From Verrucomicrobiota bacterium (GTDB taxonomy: Bacteria; Verrucomicrobiota; Verrucomicrobiia; Limisphaerales; J093): a DNA stretch of 52,954 nucleotides. Location: NCBI GenBank assembly GCA_029556615.1, contig JAKQDD010000078.1, positions 1-52,954 of the forward strand, in the 5' to 3' direction. A program made the translations under genes and the position numbers. The stretch's first letter is position 1, and every line of letters starts with the position of its first letter. The notes below the pieces were generated by a model, which saw only the letters and a list, made by a program, of their open reading frames with translations, searched no databases and was not told where the DNA came from. Below are positions 30,501 to 43,754 of this stretch, one piece after another.

Positions 30501-33500
30501 TGGCCTGCTCGGGGCGGACCTGGGGCGGTTGGCGGGGTTCACGCTGGGGATCACCGGGGAGGATGGGACGGATGCACTCATTCTGGACGACCACGAATCA
30601 AGTGTCGGGCGGGATGCCGTGCTGATCACCGACGCGAACGTGCAGAACCTGGGTGTTGAACAGGTCACGACGTTGGCGTTCGAGTCACTCGAAGTCCGGC
30701 TCAATGATCGGGGCAACGAAGCCACGATTTGGACGATGGGTCGGCCCGTCACGATCCAGGCGGGCGCCGGCGCTGACACGTTCAACGTCGCCAGCATGAC
30801 GGCGGGGCCGGAGTGGCCGCTGGTGATTCATGCTGGCGGCGGGGCCGACGTCCTCAATCTGGGCGACTCCGGCTACGGCGACATCATCGCTGCCTGGATC
30901 ACGTTCTACGGCGGTCCCGGCAACGAGAGCGTCACGGTGTACGACTTCGCCGCTGGCGGGCACTTCGAGGCCTATGGTGAGGATGGCAGCGATTCCTTCC
31001 TGGTGGACCACATGGCGGGTGGCCAGGTGCTCTTCGACGGCGGCGGTGGGGCTGACGTGCTCCAGGTGGGGTGGACGGCCGAGTATCACAGCATCGACGG
31101 GCACCTCAGGTTCCGCGGACAGGCGGGCGACGATCGAGCCGGCGTGTTCCAGCTGAAGTCGACCGGTTCGCTTTGGTTCGAGGGCGGGGAGGATAATGAC
31201 GGACTGGACCTCGGCCGCACGGTTGGCGAGCTATCACGATTGGATCACCTCGAGGGGCCGGTGATCTTCGAGGGGGGAGCGGGCGAGGATCGGTTCACCG
31301 TCGATGGCGGGTCCGGGGGATCCGGCAGTAGCATCGTCACGTTGGCCCAGGGCATCCCCGCCGGCGGCAGCGGGGCGATGGCCTGGGCGAGTTGGACGGA
31401 GACCGCCGGCGGCCTGTTTTGGGCGGCGGAACACGGAGCGATCACCCTGGGTGGATCGAGCAATCTGATTCAACTCCAGGCCACGGCCCCGGAGTGCCAG
31501 ACGCTGGCCATCACCGCGTACGGAGACAGCGAGTTCCAGATCGAGGCGCAGGCGGCTACCGCACTGCCGACCACGCTGAATGATCTCCATGGCGAAATCG
31601 CGATCGTCGATCCGGAATCCAACGACTGGCTGCGGATCGACAACCGAGCGTTGGCTGAGCCGCTCCGGGCGAATCTGACGAGCGCGCGCCTTGAGATTCT
31701 CGATGTCACTGGATTTGTCCAGGCGGGCATCGCCTACACCGGGTTCGAGGGCATGGACGTCCTTCTGGGAGACGCCGCCGACGAGTTGATTGTCGGCTCG
31801 CTCCGGGCTTACGCGGACCCTGTGGAGTTCACGCTGGGCGGGGGTGACGACCTGCTGGGCCTGGGTCTGGAAGGCAGCGCCTCGCGTCTCGCGGCCATCG
31901 GCTCCGCGGTGATCGTCTTTGCCGGAAGCGGCCACGATACGGTGGCGTTCCACGACGCGGACAATGGCAGTACCCGCACCGTGACGTTCTCGGGAACGAC
32001 GATCAGCGGATTGCTCCCGGCGGGGCTCGAGGTGCAGATGGGATTCGTCGAGCAAATCAACGCCTATCTGGGTGCGGCCAGGGACTACCTGACGATCACC
32101 GTGCCCGGTTGGGATCTGCGGGTCGACACCGGCGGCGGCGATGACCAGATCACGGTCAATGGGCTGGAACCCGGGCGGACCGTGCAGCTTCTTGGCGGCG
32201 TCGGCAACGAGACCCTGTGGGCGGGCGATGGGAACACCGTGTTTCCTTCCGGGACAGTCGAGTTCCGGGGTGGGTCGGGGAATGACACGGCCTATGTCTA
32301 CCGGTCGGTGGCCGGGGCGCTGTTCGCCTTCTACGGCGAAGGCGGCGATGACACGCTGGTTCCGGGGTTGGCGCCCACGTGGGCGCCCACCCAGCGCCTC
32401 CTGGGATGGCTGGACGGCGCGGTCTGCTTCTACGGCGGGGAGGGGTACGACACCCTGCCGCTGGACCATACGATCCCCGGGGATGTGGTGGCGCGGTTCG
32501 ATCGGTCGATGACGCCGAACGGCGATGAACTGGCCCATTTCCTCCTCACCGATGACGTCGGTGAGGTGAACCCGGCCCAGGACATGGAGCAGGGGCTCTG
32601 GTACGACGCTGAGGATGTCGACTTTTTCATGGGCAACACCTACACGTCGACGGATCAAACCGATGTCACGATCGACGCCACGGGGGCCAGCACTCAGTTA
32701 TTGCAGGTTGCCCGGTACGGCGGCGTGCCGCAACGGTTTCATGTCGGGACCGATGTCACCCGGCCGCTGTCGGACATCCATGGACAACTCAAGCTCTCGG
32801 GCGGGAGTGCGCTGCTCGAGCTCAGCGAGGCAGGCGTTAGCGACGGTGCCGATGCCCTGACGGTCTCCTGGACCGGGGCACCGGTGTATGGGGGGGCTTT
32901 GACCAGCCGATGGCTTGATGGGCTGGCTTACTTCGGTTTTGGGGACATCTCGATCACGCCGACGGATGCCGCCGACATCATCACGATCCAATCATTGGCC
33001 AGCACCTCGTTCGATGTCACGCTGCTGAGTGTCCAACCCCAGGATCTGGTGGTGTTGGGCCAGACCATCGGTTCGTCGCACTCCGTGACCGTCAACGGCG
33101 TGAAGCCGATCTACGCGGTGCCGAGCGCGGCCTCCGGTGGCAGCATGACCGCGGTCGAAGGGACGACGCTGGCCGAGGCGGTCGCCGTTCGCGACGTGCT
33201 CGCCGACCGCAGCCTGGCGGGTCTGACCACGGATCATGGCAGTCTTTTGGACAGCGGCGGTACTTATACATGGCAGTACGTGGTGACCGGACCCTTGCTG
33301 CAGACGATCGCGTTCACGGCGACGGACTCGGCGGGCTATCAGGTTGCGAAGCTTTTTGACCTGGTGGTGACGAATGCCGCGCCGGTGGCCAACGACGATG
33401 TCTACTCGTCGCGGGAACAGAAGACGCTAAACGGCAATGTCCTCGACAATGACACGAACCTGAACGACCAGCCCACCGCGACGCTGGTCGGCACGACGGG

Positions 33501-36500
33501 ACACGGCGCGGTGAGCCTCGAGACCGACGGCTCGTTCGCTTACACGCCAGTGGCGGGTTTCATCGGCGACGACACGTTCACCTATCGGGTGAGCGACAGC
33601 CTGGTCGAGTCGAATGTGGCCACCGTGACGATCCACGTGACTGTCAACACGGTGGCCGTGGCCGTGGACGACGTGATCGAGCGGCGCCTGTTCCTGTCGA
33701 TCAGCCCTGCGGACCTCCTGGGCAACGATACGGATGCCGACGGCGATGCGCTGTCGGTCGTGATCCTCACGCAGCCCTCGTTGGGGGCCTTGATCGAGAA
33801 CGCGGACGGCACGTTCCGTTACGAGCCGGGATTGTTCCTGGAGCAGTACAATACCCAGTTCACGTACGCCGCGTTTGACGGCCTGGCCACGTCGGCGCCG
33901 GCCACGGTCACTCTCGTGCCGACCTGGGATGAGCGGCCCGTGGCCAATGAGGATTGGATCGGGACGCTCACGGACACCGCGCGCCTTATCAGCCCGGCCG
34001 ACTTGCTGGGCAACGACACGGATGCCGACGGCGACGCGCTCGGGGTGATCATCAAGATCCAGCCGGAGCACGGCACGTTGACACCGGATGGCAACGGGTC
34101 ATGGGTCTACAGCCCCGAGGCGGGATTTGTCGGTCTGGACCTGTTCGGCTATGCCGCCACCGACGGCATGAAGCAGTCGGTCACGAACGACTCGCCGTGG
34201 TGGGAATCGGGCGTCACCGGCGTTTGGATCCGGGTCGCCGATTTGCTGCCGGCGCATACGCTGGCCGTCAACGCCGTCATGTCCGCGCCGCAGGGGGCTT
34301 TGGCGGGGATGAGCTGGGCCTACGCCTACCCCTCGCTCCAGGATGCTCTTGACAGGGCCGAGGCGCTCCATGGGGACGGGGTCGCGGACAACGACATCGG
34401 GGCGATCTGGATCGCCGGCGGCACGTACTCGCCTTCGGTGCCCCGCGATCCCGCTGAACCTCGGTCGGTCAGCTTCTCCCTGATCTCGCAGGTCACCCTC
34501 GTGGGAGGTTTCGAGGGCATTGAAGCCGCCCTCGACGAGCGGCCGGTCGACGAGTTTTCGGGTGCGCTGCTGTACGAGACGGTCTTGAGCGGCGACTTCC
34601 AGGACGACGACGACGAGTTCAACGATGCATGGACGGTGGTTTACGCCTCGGGGGTCGAGAACGCCGGCTTGGACACGCTAACCATCACCGAGGCTTACGG
34701 GTGGGATAGGGAGTCGTTCGAGCACATTGACCGTTGGCTGGGAGGCGGGGTGCACACGGAGGCGTCCACGCTCACCCTGCGCAACGTGCAGGTGGTTGGG
34801 ATCTTCACTGCCGGCGGTGGGAGTGGCATTTACCAGGAGGATGGCGTTCTCCGGCTCGAGGGAGTGCGGGTGGTAGGCAACAGCAGTTGGGGCGCCGGGG
34901 GCGGCCTGCGGCAGGAGGGCGGGGTGCTTTACATCGCGGACTCTGTGTTCCAGTCCAATACCGCGAATTGGGCCAGCGAAGGTCCGTTGGGCGGCGGTGG
35001 CCTCTATTTGTCGGGAGGGACCGCGACGCTGGTCAACGTGCGCATTGGCGGCAGCGCCGGTTTTGATGGAGACGGCGAAGGGAACTACAGCCCCGAGGGT
35101 GGCGGCGGCGTCGCCGTGGTCGGGCCAGCCGAGGTCCGCATGACCAACGTTGTGATCATGGGGAACCAATCGCCGGTTGCGGGCGGGCTCTACGTGACCG
35201 GCGGGGACGCCACCGTCACAATGATCAATGGCGTGGTTGCGGGCAACTTGGGCGGCGGCGTGATCAACGCCGGGGGCACAGTGACCCTCCGCAATTCGAC
35301 CCTTGCCTACAACGAATGGGCTGGTGGCGTGATTTCCGATTCCGATGCCGGGGCGACGACCACGCTGACGAACACCCTCGTTACGGGCCATTGGCAAGGC
35401 TGGGAGGGGACAGAGGATGTCGTGGGCGCCTTGATGCCGGGCAGCGCGGCCAACGTCGTCAGCGTTGCCGCCGCCGACACCGGATTGGCCGACGGCGTTG
35501 ACGGCAATTGGGTCGGCACGGCCGACGCAGCCCTCGAGGTGGACCTGGACCACGCCTTGCACTTGATGTCGACCAGTTTCGCCGTGGGCCAGGGGGACCC
35601 GTCGATGCTGCCGGCCGACGCGGATGATCTCGATGGCGACGGGAACACGATCGAACCGCTCCCCCTCGATGCTGAGGGTGCCCCGCGCACCATCGCCGGC
35701 CGACTGAGCCCGGGAGCTTACCAGACCCCCAACCTCATCCCGGTGGCGGTCCCGGGCGGACCCTATCACATCGATTTCGGCCAGGATCTCGATCTGGATG
35801 GGAGCGGGGCGTACGATCCGGACAACAGCAGAGGATGGGACTTCTGGGGCGAGGAACAGACGGGGATCGTCAGCTATGAATGGGACCTGGGGAACGGCGC
35901 ATACACGTTCGGGAGTTGGCTGCCGATGGCCAGCCTCCCCTGGAGTGAGTTGGAAGGTTACCCCGTGGGCACCCCCATCCCCGTGGCGCTGCGGGTCATG
36001 GACGCCCTTGGAGCGCAGAGCGCGTGGGCCAGCACGACCCTGACGATCGAACCTTGTCTCGTGATCTCCGGTACCGAGGTGTGGGTCGGCATCGCCGGGG
36101 GCCGAACCGTGGTTCGGGTCGACGGGGCCGTGGTTCTCGATCGGTCGCTCGACGATTTCTCCTGGGGACTGGCGATTGACGGTGGGGCGGGCGACCAGAA
36201 CCTGACGATTGATTTCGGCGAGGGCAATCCGCTGCCGCCGGGCGGGATCCAGTTCTACGGCGGCGACGGCCACGACACGCTCACGATCCTCCACGGCACC
36301 TTCACCCAGGTGACCAAAACGTTCACCGGCGCCGGCGCGGGCACTCTTCAGTTGGACGGCTACCCGCTGATTACGTATGCTGGGCTCGAACCGGTGGATC
36401 TGAGCGGGATTTCCTTTGCGGACCTGACGCTTGACATGTCTGCGGTCGTGGACCGGGCGGTTCTCGAGGATCTGGGCGTGGCGGACGACGGGGTCAGTCG

Positions 36501-39500
36501 AATCCGCAGCACCGATCCTGCGCCCACGTTCGAGGAGGTTTGGTTCTCATCACCCAGCCATTCGTTGCGGATCAACGCCAACGGCGGCGACACGGTGAGC
36601 TGCCTCGGATTCGACAGCCTGTTCAGCACGCCGAACCTCGTTTTCGCCGGCGTTGGTGGGGGGAACCGGTTTGTTCTTGGGGGCGCGGAGCGCCTGCCGG
36701 ATGGTGCGGCCTTGACGCTGGCGGGGGATGCCGAATGGGCGTTGGAAGGCTTCACGGAGGCGATTGGTTCAGTGTCTGATGCCGGGGGTGGCACGCGGGT
36801 GTCATTGGGTGCCGGGCACTTGGTCACTGGCGGCAACGATGGCAGCAGCACGTACGCCGGGACGATCGCCGGCCCCGGCAATGTGACCAAGATTGGCACA
36901 GGCACCTGGACACTGACCGGGGCCAGCGTAATCTCCGGGACCATCGAGATTGCCGAGGGCACGCTCCTGGTGAACGGCTTGCTGAACGCCAGCCTGGTCA
37001 GGGTGCAGAGCGGAGGGATGTTAGCAGGTGGCGGGACCGCTGGCCCAATCGCGGTGGAACCCGGAGGCGTCCTCAGCCCGGGCAGCAGCCCGGGTGTGTT
37101 GGCGTCATCCGGCAACCTCGTCCAGAACGGCATCCTGACGATCGAAGCGTCCGCCGCAAGCGGCGGCCCCGGAGTGGGGTGTGACCAGGTGCGGATCGTT
37201 GGCGGCGGTTCGCTGACGCTTGGCGTCACGTCGGTCCTGGCGCTCGCCTACACCGGCGGCGCGGGGTCTTTCAATCCGGTGTTCGGCCAGGTGTTCACAC
37301 TCATTGACAACGACGGCGCCGCGTCGGGCGACACGCTTGGCACGTTCAGCAACTATGCCGCCGAAGGCAGCGCGGTGATCCTTGATGGCAAGACCCTGAG
37401 GCTTTTCTACCACGGTGGCGACGGCAATGACGTGGTCCTGGTCGCAGCCGATGGCATTCCGGGTGTCTTGTACGTGAACGATCAGTGGACGTCGCCGGGC
37501 ATGGTGGACGGCGACCTCGAGCAGGCCGGCCTCCAGACGGCCTATGGCGGTGTCGATGCCTTCGCGTCGATCAGCGGAGCGCTGGCCGCCCATCCGGCGT
37601 ATGGCGGGGCCATCGTTGTCAATGGCGGCACCTACGCCTCCGCGCTGTTGGCCGGCGGCGGAGCGGTGGAACTGCAGTTGGTCCAGGATCTCAGCAATGG
37701 CGAGCACGATGTTTTCCTGCAGCAGTTGAGCGGTGACGCGGGCTCACCGGGGGACCGGATCGCGACGCGGCACTGGAACGTCGCAAACGGCAACCTGATC
37801 GTCGATCAAGGTTCGTTTGCGGGCGTGATCTCCGGAGCGGGTGCGGTCACGAAGCAGGGGACGGGCACGATCCTGCTGAGCGGCATGAACACCTACACTG
37901 GCGCCACCGCGATACCCACGGGCCTCCTTGTGTTGGGCAGCGCGGATGCGTTGGGCAACACCTTGGGGGCCAGCATCACGGGTGACGGCCGGCTGGATCT
38001 AAATGGGCAAACAACCGGCAGGCCGATCCTCCTCGACGGCGGGGGTCACAGCACCGACCCGGCCACGGGCGCGGGCGGTCTTTTCAACAGCAACCTCGCC
38101 ATCCCTGCGACGGTCAACGGCAGCCTGACGCTCGGAACGATCAGCCCGCACATTGGTGGCGCGGGCAACATCACCATCAACGGATCGATTGCCGGCGTGG
38201 TCGGGACGCCTTTCCTCGCCAAGATCAACCAGGGGACGCTGACCATCGCCAGCACGAACGGTACGGCGGCGAACTGGTCGCGGTTGCTGGTATGGGGCGG
38301 CACGGTGCGTTTGGGGGCCGCCAAGAGTCTGCCGTCTGCGATCCGCGTCGGCCTCGATTACCAGGGCATGCTCGATCTGCAGGGCAACGACCAGTCGGTG
38401 AGCTCGGTGCACATTGATGGGCCCAGCGCCATTGTGGGGACCGGGACACTCGTCATGGGACCGAACGGGATGACGATCGAGTCGGACGGCCTCGTCACCC
38501 TCAGCGCCAACCTGGGCGGGTCAGGGGGGATCACGAAGGCCAGCGGCGCCGGGACAGTGATCCTGAGCGGATCGGGCGCTTGCACGGGCGTGACGGCCGT
38601 CGGGGCTGGCACGCTGCAGGTCGACGGCTCGCTGGCGGCCAACGTATGGGTGCAATCGGGCGGGACGCTGGCGGGAACCGGCGTGATCGACGGTGAGGTC
38701 AGCATCGCTCCAGGCGCGCATCTCGCTCCGGGCACGAGCCCCGGCCGGCTGACCATTGATAATCGCGTGACACTGGGCGCCAGCCCCGCGGCTTGCGAGA
38801 TCGAGCTCAACGGATCCAGTCCAGGCGCGGACCACGATCAGTTGATCTTCACGGGATCGCGGGGATCGCTCGTTCTGGGTGGCGCGGAGTTGCGACTGAC
38901 GCTCGGTGCGGGATACACCCCTGCCGTCGGCAGCACCTTCGTGATCATCGAGCTGACCGATGCGGCCTCCACAGTGTCGGGCACCTTCGCGGGCAAGCCG
39001 GAAGGCGCGTTCTTCATCGTGGACGACGTTCTTTTCCAGGTCCACTACAGTGGCGGTGACGGCAATGACGTGGTTTTGAGCGTTGAACGCAGCGCCGTCA
39101 TGGCGCGACAGGTGTTTTACAACAACTCGGCATTTGACGATTATGATGGTGAAGCCAACGAAGGCGATGACGCGGCGATCGCGACGGACAAGAGGGCGTT
39201 GCTGCCGGGGCAGACCGCCACGTTCGCCCATTACACAAGCTACAGTCTCGGCCTGAACGGCCTCATGATCGATATGGTGGGCCTGGGCACAGGGTTCTCA
39301 GTATCGGACCTCGAATTCAGGGTGGGGAACAGCGCCGCCGTGAGCGCATGGGTTGCAGCACCCGCGCCGGCGGCCATGACCGTGCGGGAGGGGGCAGGTG
39401 TGGACGGATCGGACCGGGTGACCGTAATCTGGGCGGACGAGGCGATCCTGGGCCAGTGGCTGCAGGTCCGGGTCCTGGCGAACGAGAACACAGGGTTGAG

Positions 39501-39903
39501 TTCGCAGGATGAGTTCTACTTTGGGAATGCCCCTGGAGAATCGGGGAACAGCGGGGCGAATGCGCAGGTGGATGTGAGCGACGAGTCTGGGGCACGGGCC
39601 CACCCGCGGACGTTTCTGGAGCCGGCGGGTATCGACGATCGATACGACTACAACCGGGATCAACGGGTGAACGTGACGGATGAGAATCTGACGCGGATCC
39701 ATCACACGAATTTCCTGACGGCGCTGAAGCTGATCAACGCCCCGAGTGCGGGTTCGGGATCGGTGCTGGCATCGGTGAGGCAGGGGTTGCCGGCGCTCAC
39801 GCCGATCTTGCCCAGTGTGCTGAAGATGCAACGGCTGTCGATGATCGAGCGCGTGGCGCTTCCGCGTTTGGCGGTGACGGTGCTCCCGGCGGAGCTGCTA
39901 TGA
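9511..39903 (+). CDS. 10,130-residue LEPR-XLL multi-repeat surface protein with dockerin-like C-terminus
   Basis: One uninterrupted frame; an in-frame TAG at 9502-9504 fixes the start at ATG 9511. Order of regions (residues): LEPR-XLL motif (14-20), thought to mark surface export in these phyla; RTX-like Gly/Asp repeats (445-610 and 1180-1450); four hook-IN-like repeats (800-1155); a very long Ala/Val/Ser-rich beta-repeat region with the core 'NVIxNTxxAxI' (about 2200-5800); a second Gly-Gly-Asp-rich block (6400-7850); three cadherin-like/VCBS domains with 'LGNDTDADGD' (7950-8250); a Pmp-like parallel beta-helix (8250-8690); a PKD-like domain (8740-8850); autotransporter-type strand repeats (9100-9755); a predockerin domain (9865-10010); and a dockerin-like pair (10011-10077). 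Many Asp-rich loops suggest calcium binding. It is probably an extracellular adhesin or matrix protein of about 1 MDa, and probably held on the surface by the proteins encoded immediately downstream. No enzyme domain was seen. Confidence 0.92.
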   Translation: MQRLETAQFVLEVLEPRVLLSAGVPGAGIMTPPHESPFAGSQGVEQSAEDYAVGSGMDASLHYEPASSSGGLFGGLEGAAGQALDLAEEGVSEEAESGIELESAAESLTPDSGAVPGVDPVSSGGGVDFVEERSAAGEGGGMTLDPGSRTAPAGDAGVTLTSTPAADGVLWAQQLTETLKAANAPPAESLAVSPWDDAGVMTAVRRLIPEMSSSGSIELTGQMELTVYVSGSIQVWDLNPEGLAEAGIRSLTVRGADETDDTLLADLGRGVLPLAVTFIGGDGGYDTLVLNGVSDGRYTPGRVFGDGTFESGGSRIEFTGLEPVLVDGATVTGTVPSGLTTGASSLTFVTPGGADVITIDSPAPGKNRISGTSGGVLFESITFTHIQTVVINTGANDAAGSDADTLTIAGDLVAAGLRNFTITTGSGDDTLVAGGVFLPVAGGVFRFDGGTGSDTLQGPGVASTWNLTGTGAGSLGGAGGLGFMGVEKLVGGVGDDTYVFANNASFGGTLDGGAGRNGLDYSAYTAAPVTVDLGAGTATGTAGISNLGDVTGGAGKDILTGDAKVNSLRGGAGDDTLTGGPGDDALDGGPGSDTFAFAEGWGRDTLTETAGGTGTDVLDFSAVTADLVVRVHADGTVSVTDFTNDLTNAAGIESMVGGAGDNRMVFENGGAFAGTLDAGSGGNNTIDLSDYKTPVLVDLAAGTVTVGGYINGSTMVGLTAGMPVRYLNQGAGVNQATVSLNTALTTLNGGSGVQKASASFAITGATLLATLNNGQGVRSRGYLAATTSVSANWPAMGLQAGYDLHITLTDQQTVYVDLGNPSTLGDILNAIRAANTRLTAAVNAAGTGVDISDSAGGAHDITVADLGASTAAATLGIAGAGAGRVLHGRSITSDLLVILTDWSSVAVDIGNATTVQQVLDAIHNADPRLTASINEAGDGIRITDSAGGEENLAIENLNGSTTAADLGLTVRSTGHVLNGRPLVNDLRITARDGTVVDVNLRNADTLGEVLEAINLADSRLDATLNEASDGVDLSDSTGGSGNLTVANLNGSRAAADLGIAKTGAGDRLQGESLLDDLVVTLRNGAVVSVNLGNPVTVGDLLTAIHAANVHLTAAINAAGNGINVSDSTSGSGNLAVANLNGCTAATDLGIVGTGTGATILGTAIVNAIVATTISQVQNAVGGSGDDRFTGSTGKNTLTGGEGSDTYKFQTGWGTDVIIDFGVEGTDTLDFSGVAAVLNVTIQADGKVSIRDAAGTNTVVDAEIIETLLGGVGNDVLSFEDGATWAGTLDGGGGVNTLDFSAYATAVSVDLAAGMATASDLETAIASFRDVIGGSGNDRLTGDAKANRLEGGDGDDTLKGGGGIDTLVGGAGDDVYVMDGGFDAISEAAGGGFDTLDYSGSTGAVSVSLVGYGHIENILGGPGADTLTGTSENNTFYFVNGWGSDTISDPEGIDTLDFSAVTQAMSFDFAGGAVTVTQGANRVEAAAGTSVEILVGGSSDDTFVFHNGWGHTTIASAGTIDEDILDFSAVSANLTFTFYQDGSVSVRDDSGANTLGASAGVENIVGGSGTNTFVFEDQGGLDGYIEGGPGANILDYSTYTTAVYLDLSAMDVEYTGLVNGNPETSLGVGYATGVKGVNDITGIIGGASSGDVLIGPRDDNLWTLDGANAGTLNASFTFSGIEHLTGSADDDDSFTVTGTGSLSGTLSGNPYGLVSWTTPLESPMNPDGVAEGTDTLTFSGGSYTTVTFVATSVDTGILARDSNRLRFAGFESVVDDSTAVNRVFTYAADTTVRVSLGGVVAEDQVWTLDVDGTTYTYTAGGHDYLKDVAAGLAAQIAAGGYVTTVQDTSVLITRLGGSIPSVVPGIPVIGSSPLIVGSASVESPTIQGIALRISKDARLHIAAEGGEFTPYAFAHPSGSVYVNTGMGNDTITVEQSSMSAALVIDGKGGTADSIVYDVQAGEESQSIAFGTGSATLNGRTVTWVRVEKAKNLVVRATDGDDQIQLSGGGLGYVVSSTNATFENVTFNSTLDSLTIDAGLGDDTILTASLTSFAPGLILTGGEGVDALDLGNGHFSVLTLGTGSFDEGSAGNDAVIGDFTVGDFTFNARPSIANRVHVFRDVSGKITIVDATDVGTTITSINAPTGCLTINTGYNAPGTTEYIHVGEDPDGNVRAWLGVLNGDLVLDGGKLNKNLDGEDSVTVYSDLVLPGRGLDITANTIDIEDNITVSTSNASGDAGNIDLNGFHITVGTGAKLLADGVAGDVARSGDITLEAVDESALVTPLVDVDVSDVDVTLATGAVISGRDVTILASADNRRLYADDWTLQKGDLTTAAGAGNMIGNLFEGLTQIGGAISVVKGNAAIDIAAGSQISARDFKADASVYADVKAVPSYSFAITPSIGVAVTNATVSFGGAITTTGNAEFRTHTDHTINVVADPSAMKGYSAALAISVIVSNANTVIADTAVLHVGGDLYVTADDVDRNRTMARAGAGKDGKLALAVAVTVEDGDTNAFLDGEAHVAGSISVVADQLGIDVPIGKLFGLIPSQAIGNSASAGVGSSSKGDFLDDAQAAATSSVVNPILSALSKFVSKAQTSTAGKADAAPADLDSKFDLAGGLAVLVDINRAKARIGDGGADGDALNGDVDAGGSIEVRSKVSTSPFVSANASASNNPDTKPEQNTSVISGALGISVGVMKNDAEAYINDNAVVDAAGALTVQAQARSDVGWSWGKNLYDAVHEEATYTTENDNPVVDISPGDTVEFRTNRTSGGDVGTWYEYLGSTVLHGVNLTTEDFTNEDRWGAINPTARKARNFVTLLSNYLTGDFGVGYFILNDGCQATASGEKLALAGAVDLLLLTEAADARIRSGARINQDSETSTEQNVAVQAISHGMATHIGGNINFPSVGADSGGFKDFAKAIESSVLTDKGWHSKFGMSSKTDKGAVGFTIMGFIGMNTALATVEDGVVLHADSLRVDAGTQVLSTGVAASGGDAGNVAINGVVTFDVTINKTIAQVENGAVIDVGSALVPGGDGSLVVSAHDTSDVITLDGSVATSESIGIGATVGVTVVVRDTQALIGDLVDADSSPATGSIQSGGSVRITAENGGFIASLAIAGAKASSNPPKANSDASTSSNPGKGETQSSASSGTQQSNSKTSGWTSKLGGLLKGAASRIKTDWVGPTQDSVDQTSKSSKSGIGISGSVAVNVLNDDTRAYILNSGPVIVGDRSNHVVDGLFVEAANTTSVGALAGAGAYAKGSEGKSSVGVAGGFAINVEFGKTEAFIDGAESLDLEMLDIGAERSGWTVSLAAGLAAAAGSKSYAVGGSVGVNVITCDATAALRNMGGVVDVGGDVALTAFDDTNIIAIGGSAGFGGKAGVGVAIGFSYVENQTRSTVSGLDDFTYKGDLTLAATSDDLIITVTGSVGIATGSGGSGGYAGAGTVSVNIVNNTTEAMLTGTTLQTGSTGDVAVSATDETAVYCFAGAFAAGKKAGLGAAIAVNTLLNVTRAAVDDSTIHTTGAFRGIASEGGIVVTLAVAGAGSEKLAFAGSVAVNVLFNTVDAHVQNSAVTTVRDFYLAAEDLEISGALGGGVAISTGGSAVGAAIGVNLILNTVTATIERSSVSASAVQVGATAEQVLVSVTLGGAGGEKFALGGSVSINIIMNTVAAEVTGSEIDATRDVVLSASDDTTAVVVAGGFAVSLSSGAVGVAASTITIENDIHATIDDSSVTSTAGRVTLSAGIAQPDTPADPSGIAFGTSGITLPETNSSSVVNVTFGGAGGSTFAAGVGISVNIIKNTIEAAILNGSTVAADDGVVLSAADASVIDALAFGGAGSPSGGAGGGAISANVITNTIVTAITDSIVRAGVTDAGVVTNAMAPVTLSSLSSSIIRALAIGVSGGSSVAVAVSALGNAIANDVTASISGGSTVTAGGDVSVSAIDQAPSVLPDWMLSAEKEAELDTALEGTPVDLNAGILAIMVSVGGSGTVAVSAAVAGNVIANTVLATIDSSVAHAGGDVVVLALSDSGIIAITVGVGAAGTVAVQATGFGNVITNRIEAVIGGASDVTAGGLVALSAIESSSINSVAVSVAASGSVAVSAIVGVNVINETIAAGIGDSAVSSGTTLSLGAEAKSTVFALATGVGASGVVTVQALIAANVIVDATSATVANSRVDAGGAVSLTARNASSIDALVVSIAASGTAAITVPLVVNVIANTTEAVVLDSTLTSGGSLTLATESCNVIRALSVGVSAAGTVAVTLSGLGNGISNTLTSLIVGSTVVAAGTVSLSAEDIAPSAIPEWLLTEDQKAEVSAALEDSPIDLDTNILAIMVSVSGSGTVAVSGALSGNVIVNAIRADIVDSDVRSTGGAVVLDAAAESGIIALTVGVGGSGAVAVNASLFGNVITNTVEAMIKTSAAGETSIVHAGTFVDLAAVDASFIRSLAVSVAGSGGVSVSAIIGANVITGSVVAGIADSTVTCGTAVSLDAETRSTVYAFATGVGASGVVAVQALIAANVIVGNTSATIVNSTMDAGGAVSLTAGNTSTIDAFVVGIAASGAAAVEVPIVVNDITATTVASITESSLTTDSSLTLAAESCNVIRAISVGVSASGAVAVTVAGLGNVIVNKVTALISGSTIHAAGGVSLSADDVAPSAIPAWILPEESRQEINAAVEDSPFDLDTNILAILASVAGSGAVAVSGVVSGNVIVNTLRADIVDSEVTSGGDVALGVSTDSGIIALSVGVGAAAFVAINATGFGNVINGMLAATIDQASTVSAAGAVGVRAADQSCIRSAALSIVGSGGVAVSVIIGANVITDSVTALISGSTVTAGGALEVEAGTVSSIYSFAGGVAFSTVAGAATLAANVVANTTEALVQSATVTAGSAAIHAADAATIQCLAGEVAIGAGGGLGAGAAYNLIANTVRARVRQSSIDASAGSVTVGAEGTGTIEAIAAGGAGGMVAGIAGTLAIQTIGNTVEALVDRSTIAASDSVLVLARWDGNITADGGTGAVGGYAGVGGTIVLNTLANEVSAEIRSSSVTAGGVGAGVTVPGWSRAANLAGWQDDRLAEATEVFHGVAVVADGEERIDSAFATGSIGAVGLAVNKAVNLVTDTTEAGISDSSVTEATAGTVGIAVRAHQSTNVTNEGGVASGNGLGVVGGFDTTLIDNTTRAFIDSPAAVRSVQAGAGGVEVSAWSQELVSSKTGSAGISAVAGAAGAVSAVDIRGETTATIHETDVVSGAGVKVLATGISDVTTMAGALSVGVIAGVGGAIDYVTIARETEAAMVGVRSEAAGDTQIVATSHARINGTSGTGGGGGIAAVVGAASMHLIETLTRAYLGVGDSTCRVNSITHPGQDVVVRALDHAEISGSAGSVAGSIIAGVGGSIDVGVIRNSAQAEIGEGVVVGAGGDVTVEAEATRHVSSYAKGYAIGLVVGIGGSISVIGLGGGLSEDAHEKADKGSDTINDLLDLSGGIDGLADNETNERIEDALEEHSLTVDATITTTPPTDGLVQAAVGKQAQVAAGGNVRIAAKAAPSATSTVGQVTGGIVAVGGALALLDVAARVRALIDDETDVSAAGGVTVVAESRPTFTIDVQTGAYSAGVGVGSAKAVIGLDLSTAALVGESAAVDAGGSFEVAALTVLDDATAVTDGTVGSLLAKGEVEVNGLGDLETLATIGMRAQVAAGGDAAVRARSEISGVEVTATGGGGGLAGVGGAWAEFEFNTLNTQVVLDGFGSLVAEGDVDLSATAALDLSALVSQDLGCVSAGATVQAEVQAIMLTTVDIDNGMTVSGRTVTLTAWADKIRGHASSDCDVKGLDATAGSRTVVWYIVTSTVYLTWHSHVVGRDAVDILAQASNLDAVTSSTIDCGALAPRVDIEAYDHVDVNTLVYLFGGAEVQTAALAMVTNPVNGTQVFDYDAGSVHASGLFPDVDYDLQADLERDSRIEFYGDAVYKPVLSLFVDAAGTIEAGGGLVASKDEDRHEIVVDGLTYSGGSQPRAMLVAVGGTIVGTGRFLSGMARGCQMVNESDYALRLGAIVANDEVFPRAWYVMVAADNTGGFAYTEEEMTSSGAFQLRIESVGSVRLLQGSVMMPHGVVDITTAGDIEVADGVILQAWFASLIAGGNIGSSNLPMIVVAKNEGLFGIDAVAGQNAWLGVSSLFSDPAATGPLFTLGDLVAGGDLNLTYSGASRQTESGGWEAISTTMQLSGMLQAGGDFNLAHQGGGSLKVYQPITAGDSVTLEVWDDGGVYLHTTITALNTVSVHAAWGIGAGPDQRITAHDIDLRGTTVGGVDWATLKIDLTGGSLRAVAEVDIGIREVNGPMTVAYVYCGAGGVRLEVADTARDDDDILLGAGATMNVATWATLTAGDHVVLDPTARISAGHLILNLDTAAVDPDPGVGVEWTFREEHFLPQPEVGILDIKVRTGADEDQLTVASSSPDHAVWIDSGAGNDALSMGTGGSTVDLWGAVAFDGGEGQDTLTLDASASTSGRLFQLGMPFSTALNLQAPAIAQDGAEHGVWYEQVEVLDITLGRYGDILQLDATGPEVQQARIDGGEGSDQFEVGTGPLLLSGIHGQVSLIAGSFAGDLDCLVLVENNYVDGVSYPDERLTADVFVGEGLEGIAYSEFESLQLSLGPWDKGLTVTGLTTPTGIDLGGGDNRLTLGTAETPLATAFATGLTVECGTGANQIELLDSANPVASTWGLQDHRIQFAPQVEITGTFAGIVLHLGQDEAVVWSDITGSVEVTLLGGAGTDRLFARKVPSGHILFRGAEGADTLVVDATAEVAGQSWVLDGPPLAVPGVLATDGRLGLPSSTSGIIYDVEQVTIDGGSGDDLCRITATAVAVTTVQVSTGAGNDTVLLAAETGGVPELILSTGEGVDTIEVTATAPGTPQVRIRSGAGADVIRIGTASTQLGAIHGTVDLNQTVAEDLLGVYSGSLAGSVTAGRLNRTSVTGLGLGGSLVFDRLGELGVFLGAADEHLVVTGLPELVDTEVVIAMGAGDDTLTLGGADGLLGADLGRLAGFTLGITGEDGTDALILDDHESSVGRDAVLITDANVQNLGVEQVTTLAFESLEVRLNDRGNEATIWTMGRPVTIQAGAGADTFNVASMTAGPEWPLVIHAGGGADVLNLGDSGYGDIIAAWITFYGGPGNESVTVYDFAAGGHFEAYGEDGSDSFLVDHMAGGQVLFDGGGGADVLQVGWTAEYHSIDGHLRFRGQAGDDRAGVFQLKSTGSLWFEGGEDNDGLDLGRTVGELSRLDHLEGPVIFEGGAGEDRFTVDGGSGGSGSSIVTLAQGIPAGGSGAMAWASWTETAGGLFWAAEHGAITLGGSSNLIQLQATAPECQTLAITAYGDSEFQIEAQAATALPTTLNDLHGEIAIVDPESNDWLRIDNRALAEPLRANLTSARLEILDVTGFVQAGIAYTGFEGMDVLLGDAADELIVGSLRAYADPVEFTLGGGDDLLGLGLEGSASRLAAIGSAVIVFAGSGHDTVAFHDADNGSTRTVTFSGTTISGLLPAGLEVQMGFVEQINAYLGAARDYLTITVPGWDLRVDTGGGDDQITVNGLEPGRTVQLLGGVGNETLWAGDGNTVFPSGTVEFRGGSGNDTAYVYRSVAGALFAFYGEGGDDTLVPGLAPTWAPTQRLLGWLDGAVCFYGGEGYDTLPLDHTIPGDVVARFDRSMTPNGDELAHFLLTDDVGEVNPAQDMEQGLWYDAEDVDFFMGNTYTSTDQTDVTIDATGASTQLLQVARYGGVPQRFHVGTDVTRPLSDIHGQLKLSGGSALLELSEAGVSDGADALTVSWTGAPVYGGALTSRWLDGLAYFGFGDISITPTDAADIITIQSLASTSFDVTLLSVQPQDLVVLGQTIGSSHSVTVNGVKPIYAVPSAASGGSMTAVEGTTLAEAVAVRDVLADRSLAGLTTDHGSLLDSGGTYTWQYVVTGPLLQTIAFTATDSAGYQVAKLFDLVVTNAAPVANDDVYSSREQKTLNGNVLDNDTNLNDQPTATLVGTTGHGAVSLETDGSFAYTPVAGFIGDDTFTYRVSDSLVESNVATVTIHVTVNTVAVAVDDVIERRLFLSISPADLLGNDTDADGDALSVVILTQPSLGALIENADGTFRYEPGLFLEQYNTQFTYAAFDGLATSAPATVTLVPTWDERPVANEDWIGTLTDTARLISPADLLGNDTDADGDALGVIIKIQPEHGTLTPDGNGSWVYSPEAGFVGLDLFGYAATDGMKQSVTNDSPWWESGVTGVWIRVADLLPAHTLAVNAVMSAPQGALAGMSWAYAYPSLQDALDRAEALHGDGVADNDIGAIWIAGGTYSPSVPRDPAEPRSVSFSLISQVTLVGGFEGIEAALDERPVDEFSGALLYETVLSGDFQDDDDEFNDAWTVVYASGVENAGLDTLTITEAYGWDRESFEHIDRWLGGGVHTEASTLTLRNVQVVGIFTAGGGSGIYQEDGVLRLEGVRVVGNSSWGAGGGLRQEGGVLYIADSVFQSNTANWASEGPLGGGGLYLSGGTATLVNVRIGGSAGFDGDGEGNYSPEGGGGVAVVGPAEVRMTNVVIMGNQSPVAGGLYVTGGDATVTMINGVVAGNLGGGVINAGGTVTLRNSTLAYNEWAGGVISDSDAGATTTLTNTLVTGHWQGWEGTEDVVGALMPGSAANVVSVAAADTGLADGVDGNWVGTADAALEVDLDHALHLMSTSFAVGQGDPSMLPADADDLDGDGNTIEPLPLDAEGAPRTIAGRLSPGAYQTPNLIPVAVPGGPYHIDFGQDLDLDGSGAYDPDNSRGWDFWGEEQTGIVSYEWDLGNGAYTFGSWLPMASLPWSELEGYPVGTPIPVALRVMDALGAQSAWASTTLTIEPCLVISGTEVWVGIAGGRTVVRVDGAVVLDRSLDDFSWGLAIDGGAGDQNLTIDFGEGNPLPPGGIQFYGGDGHDTLTILHGTFTQVTKTFTGAGAGTLQLDGYPLITYAGLEPVDLSGISFADLTLDMSAVVDRAVLEDLGVADDGVSRIRSTDPAPTFEEVWFSSPSHSLRINANGGDTVSCLGFDSLFSTPNLVFAGVGGGNRFVLGGAERLPDGAALTLAGDAEWALEGFTEAIGSVSDAGGGTRVSLGAGHLVTGGNDGSSTYAGTIAGPGNVTKIGTGTWTLTGASVISGTIEIAEGTLLVNGLLNASLVRVQSGGMLAGGGTAGPIAVEPGGVLSPGSSPGVLASSGNLVQNGILTIEASAASGGPGVGCDQVRIVGGGSLTLGVTSVLALAYTGGAGSFNPVFGQVFTLIDNDGAASGDTLGTFSNYAAEGSAVILDGKTLRLFYHGGDGNDVVLVAADGIPGVLYVNDQWTSPGMVDGDLEQAGLQTAYGGVDAFASISGALAAHPAYGGAIVVNGGTYASALLAGGGAVELQLVQDLSNGEHDVFLQQLSGDAGSPGDRIATRHWNVANGNLIVDQGSFAGVISGAGAVTKQGTGTILLSGMNTYTGATAIPTGLLVLGSADALGNTLGASITGDGRLDLNGQTTGRPILLDGGGHSTDPATGAGGLFNSNLAIPATVNGSLTLGTISPHIGGAGNITINGSIAGVVGTPFLAKINQGTLTIASTNGTAANWSRLLVWGGTVRLGAAKSLPSAIRVGLDYQGMLDLQGNDQSVSSVHIDGPSAIVGTGTLVMGPNGMTIESDGLVTLSANLGGSGGITKASGAGTVILSGSGACTGVTAVGAGTLQVDGSLAANVWVQSGGTLAGTGVIDGEVSIAPGAHLAPGTSPGRLTIDNRVTLGASPAACEIELNGSSPGADHDQLIFTGSRGSLVLGGAELRLTLGAGYTPAVGSTFVIIELTDAASTVSGTFAGKPEGAFFIVDDVLFQVHYSGGDGNDVVLSVERSAVMARQVFYNNSAFDDYDGEANEGDDAAIATDKRALLPGQTATFAHYTSYSLGLNGLMIDMVGLGTGFSVSDLEFRVGNSAAVSAWVAAPAPAAMTVREGAGVDGSDRVTVIWADEAILGQWLQVRVLANENTGLSSQDEFYFGNAPGESGNSGANAQVDVSDESGARAHPRTFLEPAGIDDRYDYNRDQRVNVTDENLTRIHHTNFLTALKLINAPSAGSGSVLASVRQGLPALTPILPSVLKMQRLSMIERVALPRLAVTVLPAELL
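9550..9570 (+). other. LEPR-XLL motif of the giant protein
   Basis: Residues 14-20 are LEPRVLL, followed by S-A, within the N-terminal peptide MQRLETAQFVLEVLEPRVLL. This is the hallmark of the LEPR-XLL N-terminal region found on very large surface proteins in Planctomycetota, Verrucomicrobiota and some Gammaproteobacteria. There is no classical signal peptide. Confidence 0.9.
10840..14300 (+). repeat. RTX-like calcium-binding repeat blocks in the giant gene
   Basis: Blocks of GGxGxDxLxG nonapeptides, for example GGAGDDTLTGGPGDDALDGG (about 11218-11278), GGSGDDRFTG and GGEGSDTYKF (13051-13130), and GGDGDDTLKGGGG (13560-13590). They are separated by spacers carrying 'LDFSAVTADLVV' and 'TLDGGxGxNTLDYS'. 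Such repeats bind calcium and fold outside the cell. Confidence 0.85.
11905..12990 (+). repeat. four tandem ~91-residue hook-IN-like repeats
   Basis: Four copies start near 11917, 12190, 12460 and 12733 (period about 270-273 bases). Each carries a strand of the type 'DLVVTLRNGAVVSVNLGN', a helix 'VGDLLTAIHAAN', and 'LTAAINAAGNGINVSDST'. They finish with 'GSGNLAVANLNG' and 'AATDLGI'. The pattern matches the flagellin/FliD hook-IN motif, here outside a flagellar protein. Confidence 0.65.
19080..25760 (+). repeat. long Ala/Val-rich beta-repeat array
   Basis: Roughly 65-residue units in which a Gly-rich turn ('VGxxGxVAV') precedes 'xxxNVIxNTxxAxI' and 'SxVxAGGxVxLSAxxxSxIxAL'. The composition and regular alternation suggest a continuous beta-solenoid. 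A Ser/Lys/Thr-rich low-complexity linker lies just before it (about 18850-19060), and a charged helical insertion (DNETNERIEDALEEHS) follows it at about 25905-25950. Confidence 0.7.
21150..23990 (+). repeat. ~1.05 kb higher-order repeat inside the array
   Basis: The landmark 'APSxxPxWxL' followed by an acidic stretch and 'NILAIxxSVxGSGxVAVSG' occurs at 21310, 22357 and 23421, spacings of 1047 and 1064 bases. The intervening units align one-to-one between copies, so a whole five- to six-unit block was duplicated at least twice and then diverged. Confidence 0.75.
28700..33060 (+). repeat. four large Gly/Asp-rich superunits with an IHG landmark
   Basis: The landmark L-x-x-[IL]-H-G recurs near 29180, 30210, 31580 and 32770. 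Each follows a strand pattern 'GxWYxxExVDIxLGxxxDxxQLDATGPExQ' and a 'GGxGxDxFxVGT' loop. Units are about 350-450 residues and imperfect. They form a second calcium-loop-like region distinct from the N-terminal RTX blocks. Confidence 0.6.
33370..34250 (+). other. three cadherin-like/VCBS-type domains of the giant protein
   Basis: Three consecutive ~90-residue domains begin with 'APVANDDVYS', 'VAVAVDDVI' and 'RPVANEDWI'. Two share 'SPADLLGNDTDADGDALSV', and all end with a 'GxxxFxYxxxDG' strand. This is the usual bacterial cadherin-like repeat, which binds calcium between domains and acts as a rigid spacer in large adhesins. Confidence 0.75.
34260..36050 (+). other. Pmp-like beta-helix followed by a PKD-like domain
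   Basis: The region 34260-35570 reads 'DNDIGAIWIAGGTYSPS', 'LVGGFEG' and then Asn/Gly-rich rungs ('GNSSWGAGGGLRQEGG', 'LTNTLVTGHW'). This is a polymorphic-outer-membrane-type right-handed beta-helix. From 35735 'VPGGPYHIDFGQDLDLDGS' and 'YEWDLGNG' mark a PKD-like fold. Confidence 0.6.
36830..38770 (+). repeat. autotransporter-associated beta-strand repeats of the giant protein
   Basis: Three stretches carry the G-x-G-x-x-x-K-x-G-x-G-T-x-x-L-x-G core: 'GPGNVTKIGTGTWTLTG' (about 36868), 'GAGAVTKQGTGTILLSG' (about 37840) and 'GSGGITKASGAGTVILSG' (about 38518). Each is followed by 'LVNGxLxAxVxVQSGGxLAGxG' and 'LxPGxSPGxL'. This matches the autotransporter strand repeat, but there is no C-terminal autotransporter barrel. 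Confidence 0.75.
39541..39740 (+). other. dockerin-like domain at the C-terminus of the giant protein
   Basis: Two EF-hand-like segments: a weaker one with 'AQVDVSDESGARAHP', and a canonical loop DYNRDQRVNVTDE, in which D1, N3, D5 and D12 match the dockerin calcium loop. They are joined by 'FLEPAGIDDRY' and followed by 'LTRIHHTNFLTALKLI'. The preceding domain (39107-39540, 'FYNNSAFDDYD' and 'LPGQTATFAHYTSYS') is the one that commonly precedes dockerins in large surface proteins of Planctomycetota and Verrucomicrobiota. Confidence 0.75.
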
Positions 39904-40586
39904 AAGCGAAGAGGAAAGGCAATCATCTTCTGAGGCCTCTGAGAGCCTGGTCCAGGCTGGCGCTGGCCCTGGCGGGCCTGCTGTGGGTGGCAGGCACGGC
40001 GTGGGCCGCGGCGTGGGTGGACATGCCGGAGATCACGGTGAACCGGAACGACGCGGACCCCATGTTCGTGGTGTACATGAACATCACGGAGGAGCCGGTC
40101 GAGGTGATGGGGATTGCCTTCAATCTCCAGGTTGAAGACGGCGGGTCGGCGGCTGGAGGCGCCGTCGAAGGGCCCGCGATCAAGGCGGTGGACATTCTGA
40201 CGGGCACGGTGTTCGAGGGGAACTCGAACGGGCTGAGCGGGACCGGGTCGATCGTGCCGCAGGTGTACGAGGAGGGAACGATCACGGTCGAGGGGACGAT
40301 CACGCTGGCACCCGGGCTGTGGAAGGTCGCAACGGTGACGCTGGACACGACGGGGTTCAGTTCGGGCACCTACCGATTGACCCTCGACACGCGAAACGGG
40401 CCGACGCGGTACACGACCCTCGAGGGAGATTATCTGCCGGCGCTCCACGACGGCAGCGTGACGATCGTGCCGGAGCCGGCTTTTTGGGGATGGGCCAGCG
40501 GAGGGGGCTTGCTCCTGCTTGCGGGGGTCCGACGGATCCGGCGTCGGATCCGGCGTCCTGACGGGTCGGCGACGGGATCCCCCTAG
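39900..40586 (+). CDS. PEP-CTERM protein with cohesin-like ectodomain
   Basis: A 228-residue product. The ATG (39900-39902) overlaps the stop of the giant gene in an ATGA, so translation is probably coupled. It has a signal peptide (basic start, then 'LALALAGLLWVAGTAWA') and one beta-sandwich domain of about 150 residues. That domain opens with 'VDMPEITVNRND' and contains 'GIAFNLQVEDGG', 'VDILTGTVFEGN' and 'VATVTLDTTGFSSGTYRLTLD', the strand order and Gly-x-x-F pattern of cohesins. The C-terminus is a sorting signal: VPEP, a hydrophobic segment, then RRIRRRIRR. Exosortase should process it and hold it at the cell surface or in the exopolysaccharide. The cohesin reading is inference; the PEP-CTERM tail is seen directly. 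Confidence 0.85.
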   Translation: MKAKRKGNHLLRPLRAWSRLALALAGLLWVAGTAWAAAWVDMPEITVNRNDADPMFVVYMNITEEPVEVMGIAFNLQVEDGGSAAGGAVEGPAIKAVDILTGTVFEGNSNGLSGTGSIVPQVYEEGTITVEGTITLAPGLWKVATVTLDTTGFSSGTYRLTLDTRNGPTRYTTLEGDYLPALHDGSVTIVPEPAFWGWASGGGLLLLAGVRRIRRRIRRPDGSATGSP

Positions 40587-40750
40587 AGTCCTCGACTTGT
40601 GGAGTATGGGGTCATCAGGTCAAGTTCTGTCCGGTCCGGTTCCAAGCCTCCCCTCTTTCCGTCGAGGACTCTTCATTAGCGAGGCGCGCAGGAGGGGTGG
40701 GCAAGCACAGCAGGGTCTTCATGTGCCTGAGGACTCGACTGGGTCTGAGG
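40586..40750 (+). repeat. dispersed repeat family 2, fullest copy
   Basis: It starts with GAGTCCTCGACTTGTGGA, overlapping the stop of the PEP-CTERM gene. It continues through AGGTCAAGTTCTGTCC, GCCTCCCCTC, TCGAGGACTC and TAGCGAGGCGCG, and ends with TGAGGACTCGACTGGGTCTG. GAGTCCTCGA at the left pairs with TCGAGGACTC in the middle, so the left half can fold. Related copies lie at 1912-1975, 5612-5650 and 43755-43872. Confidence 0.75.
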
Positions 40751-40770
40751 CGGCGCTTCGCTGGCGCGTG

Positions 40771-41622
40771 ATGCGAGATCCCCGGGCCAACAGGTCATTC
40801 GATAGCCGTGTGTTGCGGGCGATCGCACGAGGCGCGGTCCTTGTCCTGTTGATCTCGGGTGTTGTCGGCATGGCCCCGAAGGGCGGGGCTGCGGTTACGA
40901 TTGACATGCCCGAGGTCCTCCTTGCGCCAAATCAGGCCGGGCAGACCTTCGAGGTGCACGCCGTGAACCATGGGGACCCCGTGCCGGTGACCGGGATTGG
41001 ATTCAACGTCCAGGTGGCGGATGGTGGGGTTCCCGCCGGAGGTCGCATCCAGGGTCCCGCGATTACGTCCGTGGATGTGGTGACCGGGACGGTCTTCGCC
41101 TCGAACAACAACGGGCCCAGCGGCGCGGGGTCGATGGTCCCGCAAGTGTATGAGCGGGGGACCCTGACGTCCTCGGGGTCGGTGAACCTCCCGAGTGGCA
41201 TTTCGAAAGTGGCGACCGTCGTCCTCGACACCACAGGCTTCGATTCCGGGACCTTCACCCTGACCCTGAACACGGTGAACGATCGCACTCATTATACGAC
41301 GCTGAGCGGGAATCTGCGTCCATTGTTGATCGATGGCGCGGTGACGATTGCCTCGCCGCCCCGGGTGATGCGGATTATCGCGTGCGCGCCCTCGAGGCTG
41401 GCATTGACCTTCACGACGATCGCGGGGGTCCGTTACCGCGTGCAGCGGGCTGACACCCTGGGGGCGGCAGCCTGGGCCAACGTCCCCCACGCGCTCGCGG
41501 CGGACGAACCGCTCGTGATCGAGCCGCAGATCGGGCTGGGCGCGCCTCAGACTGTCTATGTCGAGTGCTCAGCCGGCGCGGCTGGTTTCTATCGCATCCG
41601 GATGGACCCCCCTGGGCCTTGA
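40771..41622 (+). CDS. secreted cohesin-like protein without PEP-CTERM (paralogue of 39900-40586)
   Basis: A 283-residue product from ATG 40771, chosen because it places a signal peptide (basic start, 'GAVLVLLISGVVGMAPKGGAA') directly before the mature domain; the open frame upstream is repeat DNA. Residues about 40-185 are clearly homologous to the upstream PEP-CTERM protein, with 'IDMPEVLLAPNQAG', 'GIGFNVQVADGG', 'GSMVPQVYERGT' and 'VATVVLDTTGFDSGTF' at about half identity by eye. The C-terminus has instead a ~80-residue beta-rich tail ('VRYRVQRADTLG' to 'AGFYRIRMD'), the type often seen at the end of verrucomicrobial exported proteins, so anchoring must differ. It may be a soluble partner or an alternative receptor for the giant protein. 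Confidence 0.7.
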   Translation: MRDPRANRSFDSRVLRAIARGAVLVLLISGVVGMAPKGGAAVTIDMPEVLLAPNQAGQTFEVHAVNHGDPVPVTGIGFNVQVADGGVPAGGRIQGPAITSVDVVTGTVFASNNNGPSGAGSMVPQVYERGTLTSSGSVNLPSGISKVATVVLDTTGFDSGTFTLTLNTVNDRTHYTTLSGNLRPLLIDGAVTIASPPRVMRIIACAPSRLALTFTTIAGVRYRVQRADTLGAAAWANVPHALAADEPLVIEPQIGLGAPQTVYVECSAGAAGFYRIRMDPPGP

Positions 41623-42822: not shown

Positions 42823-42824
42823 CG

Positions 42825-43723: not shown

Positions 43724-43754
43724 AGCATGCAGTCCAAAGGAACCGTGGGGGAGC

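Follow-up and report, generated by a model that had tools for sequence, protein, structure and literature searches.

Does the very large protein encoded in the window, a 52,954-nucleotide stretch of DNA from a Verrucomicrobiota bacterium, dock through its C-terminus onto the product of the gene that follows it? The giant reading frame (Table 1) runs for 10,130 codons from its ATG. Its product contains 29 + 6 LktA_tand_53 repeat stretches, along with Big_9/cadherin-like domains, RTX repeats, and autotransporter-type repeats, and is likely a surface protein or adhesin. The match of its N-terminus to NF012209 falls just under the cut-off of 17 (16.3 bits, E 0.0054).

Table 1. Coordinates of the features in the window.
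Feature	Position	Strand	Basis
Giant protein of 10,130 aa, likely at the surface	9511..39903	+	ORF, repeat/domain matches
LEPR-XLL-type N-terminal motif, residues 9-22	9535..9576	+	NCBIfam NF012209
Big_9/cadherin-like domains, residues 7955-8226	33373..34188	+	Pfam PF17963, PF17892
X-module, predicted Ig-like fold, predicted packing on dockerin	39106..39537	+	alignment, AF2 model
Dockerin with two repeats of loop and helix, residues 10,011-10,077	39541..39741	+	family profile, AF2 model helices
Calcium-type loop 1, degenerate at position 3	39547..39582	+	Asp at 12 in 90/90 sequences
Calcium-type loop 2, D-x-N-x-D...D	39646..39681	+	Asp at 1 and 12 in 90/90 sequences
ATGA overlap, giant stop/anchor-gene start	39900..39903	+	ATG at -4 in 5/31 pairs
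Candidate anchored receptor: protein of predicted cohesin fold plus PEP-CTERM-type tail	39900..40586	+	sequence, predicted structure
Predicted cohesin-fold ectodomain 1	40008..40472	+	
PEP-CTERM-type tail, made up of VPEP, a hydrophobic helix at model residues 161-182 and a basic cluster	40467..40586	+	sequence, modelled helix
Second cohesin-type protein without anchor	40771..41622	+	ATG start; TTG start possible at 40519
Putative cohesin-type ectodomain 2	40891..41355	+	profile E 6.9e-57
C-terminal ~90-residue stretch, end FYRI	41356..41619	+	translations

The giant ends in an X-module followed by a two-repeat dockerin with symmetric half-sites; the original prediction had a dockerin-like domain at this end. 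The X-module is conserved across 90 aligned sequences and resembles PDB entries only weakly. An AF2 model of the two modules together (pLDDT 96.5, pTM 0.92) places the dockerin helices at 157-165 and 190-198. In a Pfam search at E <= 1, the window's own dockerin had no match; 7 of 14 aligned relatives matched Dockerin_1 at this threshold (best 1.2e-5). The family profile retrieved 14 PDB sequences at E <= 10 (best E 0.0031), all of them cellulosomal enzymes or scaffoldins whose alignments fall at profile positions 142-202, the dockerin portion.

The giant's TGA (39901-39903) overlaps the ATG of the next gene, confirming the proposed ATGA junction. That gene encodes a 228-aa protein with an N-terminal hydrophobic stretch, an ectodomain of ~155 residues, and a tail of VPEP, hydrophobic residues, and RRIRRR. 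The PEP-CTERM motif is visible in the sequence but scores below the NCBIfam cut-offs; the protein is likely membrane-anchored. Structure prediction gives its ectodomain a cohesin fold, rather than the unrelated fold that would have spoken against a cohesin-like receptor. A related ectodomain recurs in the product of the second gene (46% for the proteins as a whole, 55% for the ectodomain), which lacks the PEP tail, as had been claimed, and carries an extra stretch at its end. By eye, this FYRI-ending stretch resembles the ends of some X-dockerin proteins and of other cohesin proteins that lack an anchor.

Among relatives, the order of X-dockerin gene and cohesin-type gene is kept, where a lack of conserved order would have spoken against the original prediction, and the two partners diverge together. 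The X-dockerin partners are not always giants, with open frames from 307 aa up among the pairs. The layout, for which the original prediction knew of no described counterpart, is not unique; it recurs, and one version has many dockerins and few cohesins. Translational coupling, proposed to keep the two products in proportion, is only possible: an ATG at -4 occurs in 5 of the 31 gene pairs, among them all three pairs of this genome. "Self-contained" is too strong a term, because elsewhere this genome has a 14,210-aa ORF with Pfam dockerins, as well as three Pfam cohesins.

Co-divergence of the partners and the symmetric dockerin half-sites provide indirect evidence of contact between them. The earlier reading, in which the anchored cohesin-like protein would tether the giant's dockerin, is supported, and the likely anchored protein is probably the docking site for this module. 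We propose that the giant's C-terminal dockerin would plug into the likely membrane-anchored protein of predicted cohesin fold encoded by the overlapping gene. In the cellulosome, the dockerin-cohesin plug holds cellulases; in this reading, a plug of the same type would instead hold likely adhesins.

We propose that the giant protein is tethered to its own cell by its C-terminal X-dockerin, plugged into the predicted cohesin of a PEP-CTERM-type protein encoded by the overlapping next gene, and we consider this probable. The window is the entire contig G000:C118 of its genome of origin (G000), a 7.2 Mb bin with completeness 94.68 and contamination 7.45%. Domain scans of the 10,130-residue giant identified 29 + 6 LktA-type 53-residue repeat stretches, Big_9/cadherin-like domains, and RTX and autotransporter-type repeats; no glycoside hydrolase domain was found in it at E <= 1e-3. 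Its LEPR-XLL motif (NF012209) scores 16.3 bits against a cut-off of 17, and the giant is therefore not filed as a member of that family. The arrangement that defines a cellulosome, dockerin-bearing plant-wall hydrolases on a multi-cohesin scaffoldin, is not what we find, the cohesin proteins of the window carrying one cohesin each. The gene pair is followed by genes for a phosphopantetheinyl transferase, a BioF/5-aminolevulinate-synthase-like enzyme, a phosphoribosyltransferase-like protein, a GFO/IDH oxidoreductase, and a radical SAM protein.

Positions of the features discussed, in the window or in the locus named
Feature	Position	Strand	Remark
Giant gene	9511-39903	+	10,130 aa
X-module	39106-39537	+	in giant
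Dockerin	39541-39741	+	in giant
Anchored cohesin gene	39900-40586	+	228 aa
Ectodomain 1	40008-40472	+	in anchored protein
PEP-CTERM-type tail	40467-40586	+	in anchored protein
Second cohesin gene	40771-41622	+	unanchored
Ectodomain 2	40891-41355	+	in unanchored protein
Stretch ending FYRI	41356-41619	+	~90 residues
Genes after the pair	41956-48383		five products
Locus L024 (G016:C345), second cohesin	5485-6178		split across two frames
Locus L052, cohesin and X-dockerin	5524-6642		single chain
Locus L117, cohesin and X-dockerin	2463-3572		single chain
Locus L073, cohesin and X-dockerin	4612-7335		single chain

The original prediction of a cohesin-like ectodomain holds at the level of the model, whose predicted structure is the cohesin beta-sandwich (structure prediction and Foldseek), with the Archaeoglobus cohesin 2xdh at Foldseek rank 2. 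None of 30 ectodomains matches Pfam Cohesin (PF00963) at E <= 1, and we accordingly speak of a cohesin fold and not of a PF00963 member. Pfam and NCBIfam scans of both cohesin-type genes named no cohesin family and a PDB sequence search with the cohesin profile found no cohesin, so the fold was addressed by structure prediction; strand numbers in the model were assigned by eye. At rank 35, Foldseek also matched the model with a fibrillar adhesin domain of Gram-negative origin (9ifr, E 2.9e-4). Six matches to the anchored protein (in genomes G019, G007, G056, G005, G017, and G003) were discarded as non-cohesin, as they covered C-terminal query parts only, residues 126-227 at most. Neither the viral contigs, searched with P0005, nor the first genome-contig scan with the anchored protein gave a confirmed relative. 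The FYRI-ending stretch of the second cohesin protein is seen again, by eye, where other unanchored cohesin proteins end, and in some X-dockerin proteins it follows the dockerin; it is possibly another attachment or sorting domain.

The giant's end likewise proves dockerin-like, with two loop-helix repeats and conserved Asp residues, loop 2 being canonical and loop 1 degenerate. A dockerin family profile searched against the PDB reached a best E of 0.0031, and all 14 matches were cellulosomal and aligned on the dockerin part; the window dockerin alone had no Pfam match. In the predicted model of X-module plus dockerin (pTM 0.92), an Ig-like X-module, itself without a confident PDB match, packs on the dockerin. 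Across 31 genomes, with one X-dockerin each, the two half-sites (the recognition positions of the two repeats) are identical at 0.571 of ten variable positions within a protein and at 0.271 between proteins; the highest of 20,000 permutations reached 0.384. Codons at identical half-site residues agree at 0.50, close to the 0.46 elsewhere in the gene, and the symmetry thus looks like selection on the protein and not like recent duplication. Judged by sequence, the dockerin has the internal two-fold symmetry that a dual binding mode would show, which passages of one source describe for clostridial cellulosome dockerins with dual binding (PMC5429695).

The next gene had been read as encoding a PEP-CTERM protein translationally coupled to the giant; the first point stands in part, and coupling is possible. 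Motif, hydrophobic stretch, and basic end are present in the window copy, but its NCBIfam score (TIGR02595-type) falls below the cut-off, which 5 of 10 family proteins scanned exceed. By eye, 20 of 31 X-dockerin-paired cohesin proteins end in a PEP-type motif, a hydrophobic stretch, and basic residues, locus L023 among them with VPEH; a pattern match gave 21/31 by falsely counting the first cohesin of L112. In L021 the PEP-type tail sits between two cohesins. Anchorless ends, as in the window's second gene, occur in L020, L041, L038, L154, and the first cohesin of L112. By eye, a dockerin-like repeat closes L114 and L094; the proteins of L117 and L052 are larger, and L024b is broken. Exosortase was present in all 16 genomes tried, and G000 has three PF09721 matches. 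The ATGA overlap exists in the window, and an ATG at -4 relative to the upstream stop is possible, on putative starts, in only 5 of 31 pairs: all three of G000, G047:C432, and G043.

Gene order in relatives is conserved, as expected. With the anchored protein as sole query, in a search that predates any use of X-dockerins and hence any knowledge of linkage, the ectodomain was found on six contigs in 4 of 58 genomes, own genome counted (G000:C118, G000:C219, G047:C432, G047:C422, G026:C8, and G016:C345, the last with two copies), and every copy comes after an X-dockerin gene. An order survey of 293 genomes, scoring at most 12 cohesin and 10 X-dockerin candidates per genome, gave 29 matches for the cohesin, spread over 17 genomes, and 40 for the X-dockerin, over 21. 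Twenty-six of the 29 cohesin matches lie no more than 3 kb downstream of an X-dockerin and share its strand (two of the 26 are pieces of one broken gene), in a survey that leans to linked copies because each of the 30 rows in the cohesin profile, A3, derives from a locus holding an X-dockerin. Conversely, 21 of the 40 X-dockerin matches have a cohesin match within 3 kb downstream and 19 have none there; the 19 include some at contig ends and one in G053 with a divergent cohesin after it (hhalign E 1.5e-5, probability 80). The X-dockerin of G009:C191 precedes a folC-like ORF (named by eye). Those of L037 (G001) and L042 (G009) precede a PEP-CTERM protein of another kind, perhaps a different socket; the one in L037 fails to align with the cohesin profile.

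Both modules occur together in 15 of the 293 genomes, the cohesin only in two (G170, G233), the X-dockerin only in six (G001, G009, G053, G241, G247, G262), and neither in 270 (Fisher p 1.3e-18, kinship between genomes ignored); 386 other genomes drawn from the phylum contained no match to either. Among 79 named X-dockerin loci, a cohesin lies downstream in 17 and in the same chain in one (L073). Five genomes with at least 8 X-dockerins supply 59 of these loci, 40 of them from one Pirellulales MAG, and a cohesin so placed is found for only 2 of the 59 compared with 16 of the remaining 20, the exceptions being L047 (514 nt available), L074, L098, and L120. Not every partner is a giant: the paired X-dockerin proteins have open frames between 307 (G043) and 10,132 aa. 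Synteny extends further in G053:C65 and G000:C255 (loci L038 and L041), where, by eye, additional genes after the cohesin are shared, encoding proteins with LLPFQxRL. Three single chains carry both a cohesin and an X-dockerin and could link head to tail; one of them, L073, by eye also has a peptidase part and a further dockerin-like repeat.

The partners also diverge together. Across 30 pairs (three of G000 and 27 in relatives, leaving out the second cohesin locus of G016, whose pieces were scored separately, and L073, whose cohesins sit in the X-dockerin's own chain), cohesin distance correlates with dockerin distance (r 0.65, permutation p 2e-4), and still at 0.59 with the X-module held constant. 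The correlation of cohesin with X-module is 0.40, falling to 0.22 (p 0.036) with the dockerin held constant. Using ranks, or removing outliers, near relatives, or second loci, leaves the cohesin-dockerin value at 0.46-0.64, all p <= 0.002. Column covariation with the dockerin recognition positions is 0.143 for strands 3, 5, 6, and 8 against 0.048 for the other sheet (p 0.0002), and 0.110 against 0.043 with 23 pairs (p 0.0037), in a test where columns within one strand are interdependent and strand numbers were set by eye; taken by itself, strand 8 reached a low 0.02 in an earlier column run. Passages on solved complexes place the dockerin-interacting plateau on this 8-3-6-5 sheet (PMC5429695, PMC5141474).

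Copy numbers point to two versions of the pairing. A cohesin match is present in 27 of 31 genomes that were picked because they contain an X-dockerin. G000 holds three X-dockerins, each followed by a cohesin, and four cohesin matches, whereas G058 (Pirellulales label) holds 70 X-dockerin and 3 cohesin matches, and G059 (Nealsonbacteria label) 58 and 7, the 7 including pieces; the Planctomycete-labelled G061, G060, and G062 have 13/1, 8/2, and 8/2. Half-site identity is 0.90 and 0.89 within a set of 40 G058 X-dockerins (X-module 0.63) and 0.86 and 0.87 for six from G059 (0.56), as against 0.28 and 0.32 between genomes (0.58). Among G000's own loci the mean identity is 0.10 for half-site 1 and 0.52 for the X-module, with 0.50 for half-site 2 from one comparison, and G047's two loci give 0.20 and 0.40 (X-module 0.65). 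Conserved half-sites in G058 and G059 and divergent ones in G000 and G047 are the trace expected of shared and private sockets, respectively. The split has exceptions in DAOVQV (0.58/0.68, X-module 0.72), JAFGHE (0.64/0.80, X-module 0.65), and the two pairs of G016, which are alike (0.70, 0.80, X-module 0.72) and may therefore cross-bind. At one G058 locus, two PEP-CTERM cohesins come after the X-dockerin. Within the order, it is common for an X-dockerin to have an adjacent cohesin of its own (21 of 40 matches), and many X-dockerins would share few cohesins in some Planctomycete genomes. G000 also encodes a putative second cohesin-dockerin set, comprising two Pfam dockerins in a 14,210-aa ORF on C78 (two places) and three Pfam cohesins in ~2,100-aa ORFs on C108, C14, and C125.

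That second set, the hub-like copy numbers of G058 and G059, and the alike half-sites of G016 would suit a promiscuous network, in which other cohesins of the genome are additional or the main partners of the dockerin, the adjacent cohesin takes other dockerins, and the pair is not a dedicated tether. We regard this as unlikely, since each of the three G000 X-dockerins has its own adjacent cohesin and their half-site 1 is strongly divergent relative to the X-module. Joint export might instead explain the linkage, with some other partner for the cohesin-fold protein (a glycan, another surface protein, or the X-module) and the dockerin-like end serving as a calcium-stabilised cap. Cohesin-like beta-sandwiches resemble carbohydrate-binding folds, and the lack of a Pfam Cohesin score and the degenerate loop 1 fit such a role; co-divergence of cohesin and dockerin that exceeds what the X-module in that chain shows, stronger on the known binding sheet, and the protein-level symmetry of the half-sites make it quite improbable. 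A helper role of the PEP-CTERM cohesin in export or assembly, in which it is made with the giant's end and holds that C-terminus during secretion without being the final anchor, seems to us very improbable: the start positions of the G000 pairs agree with this, but the overlap is rare elsewhere, and the few cohesin matches kept by genomes with 70 or 58 X-dockerin matches fit a receptor better than a co-translational helper.

For the tether to an anchored cohesin, we envisage an X-module that would stiffen and present the dockerin, as the model and published structures of cellulosomal X-dockerin dyads suggest, and near-equivalent half-sites that would permit two alternative binding orientations. 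Exosortase would process the anchored cohesin, which would be retained at the cell envelope, leaving the repeat-rich, cadherin-like rest of the giant free to act outside. The unanchored second cohesin might act as a cap or relay for released fibres, or use its own C-terminal stretch for attachment; this is the weakest step of the scheme.

Cellulosome anchoring is similar in having an X-module beside the dockerin and an anchored cohesin as receptor, and the binding sheet and dockerin symmetry are as in passages on solved complexes (PMC5141474, PMC5429695, PMC11557425), the binding here being proposed. Examples of cellulosomal anchoring are the sortase-anchored scaffoldin of Ruminococcus and the SLH anchors of Acetivibrio. 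Here, by contrast, the client is a repeat protein in which no glycoside hydrolase domain was found, the anchor is a PEP-CTERM-type tail, the partners are adjacent genes, and the cohesin lies outside Pfam Cohesin. A role outside cellulose degradation is shared with the Archaeoglobus cohesin (2xdh) and with the peptidase "planctosome" with a lamin-tail anchor, proposed for freshwater Planctomycetes in passages of PMC6461901; unlike that peptidase model, the present system is a recurrent gene pair with an exosortase-type tail and measured co-divergence. Giant ORFs of Omnitrophota, proposed as adhesins, also carry dockerin domains, but nine in one ORF, and the relevant passages describe no paired anchored cohesin (PMC10066038). 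PEP-CTERM/exosortase surface proteins share the PEP motif, hydrophobic helix, basic end, and exosortase matches in the genome, and differ in that the ectodomain here is a predicted cohesin fold beside an X-dockerin gene. In the literature searched, with subscription papers largely outside its scope, PEP-CTERM was not found together with dockerin or with cohesin, and exosortase and dockerin appeared together only in one paper, on methanotrophic archaea.

Collectively, the gene pair recurs and is likely to dock exoproteins, including some giants, onto anchors of exosortase type. We also lean towards a separate surface display system of Verrucomicrobiota and Planctomycetota, in which exosortase-anchored cohesins of a new sequence family would receive, as sockets, the X-dockerin plugs of exoproteins, the largest of them giants. 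It would exist in a dedicated version, with one cohesin-dockerin code per exoprotein and several per genome, and a hub version, with few sockets, up to 70 plugs, and one shared code; in some species, chains with both modules would link head to tail into fibres. The function of cohesins and dockerins outside cellulosomes was called not known in a 2017 passage (PMC5244752), and these small, adjacent, apparently cognate modules make it directly testable. If true, the proposal would show how large exoproteins are retained on the cell surface in bacteria of these phyla, and would add many plug-socket pairs to those known.
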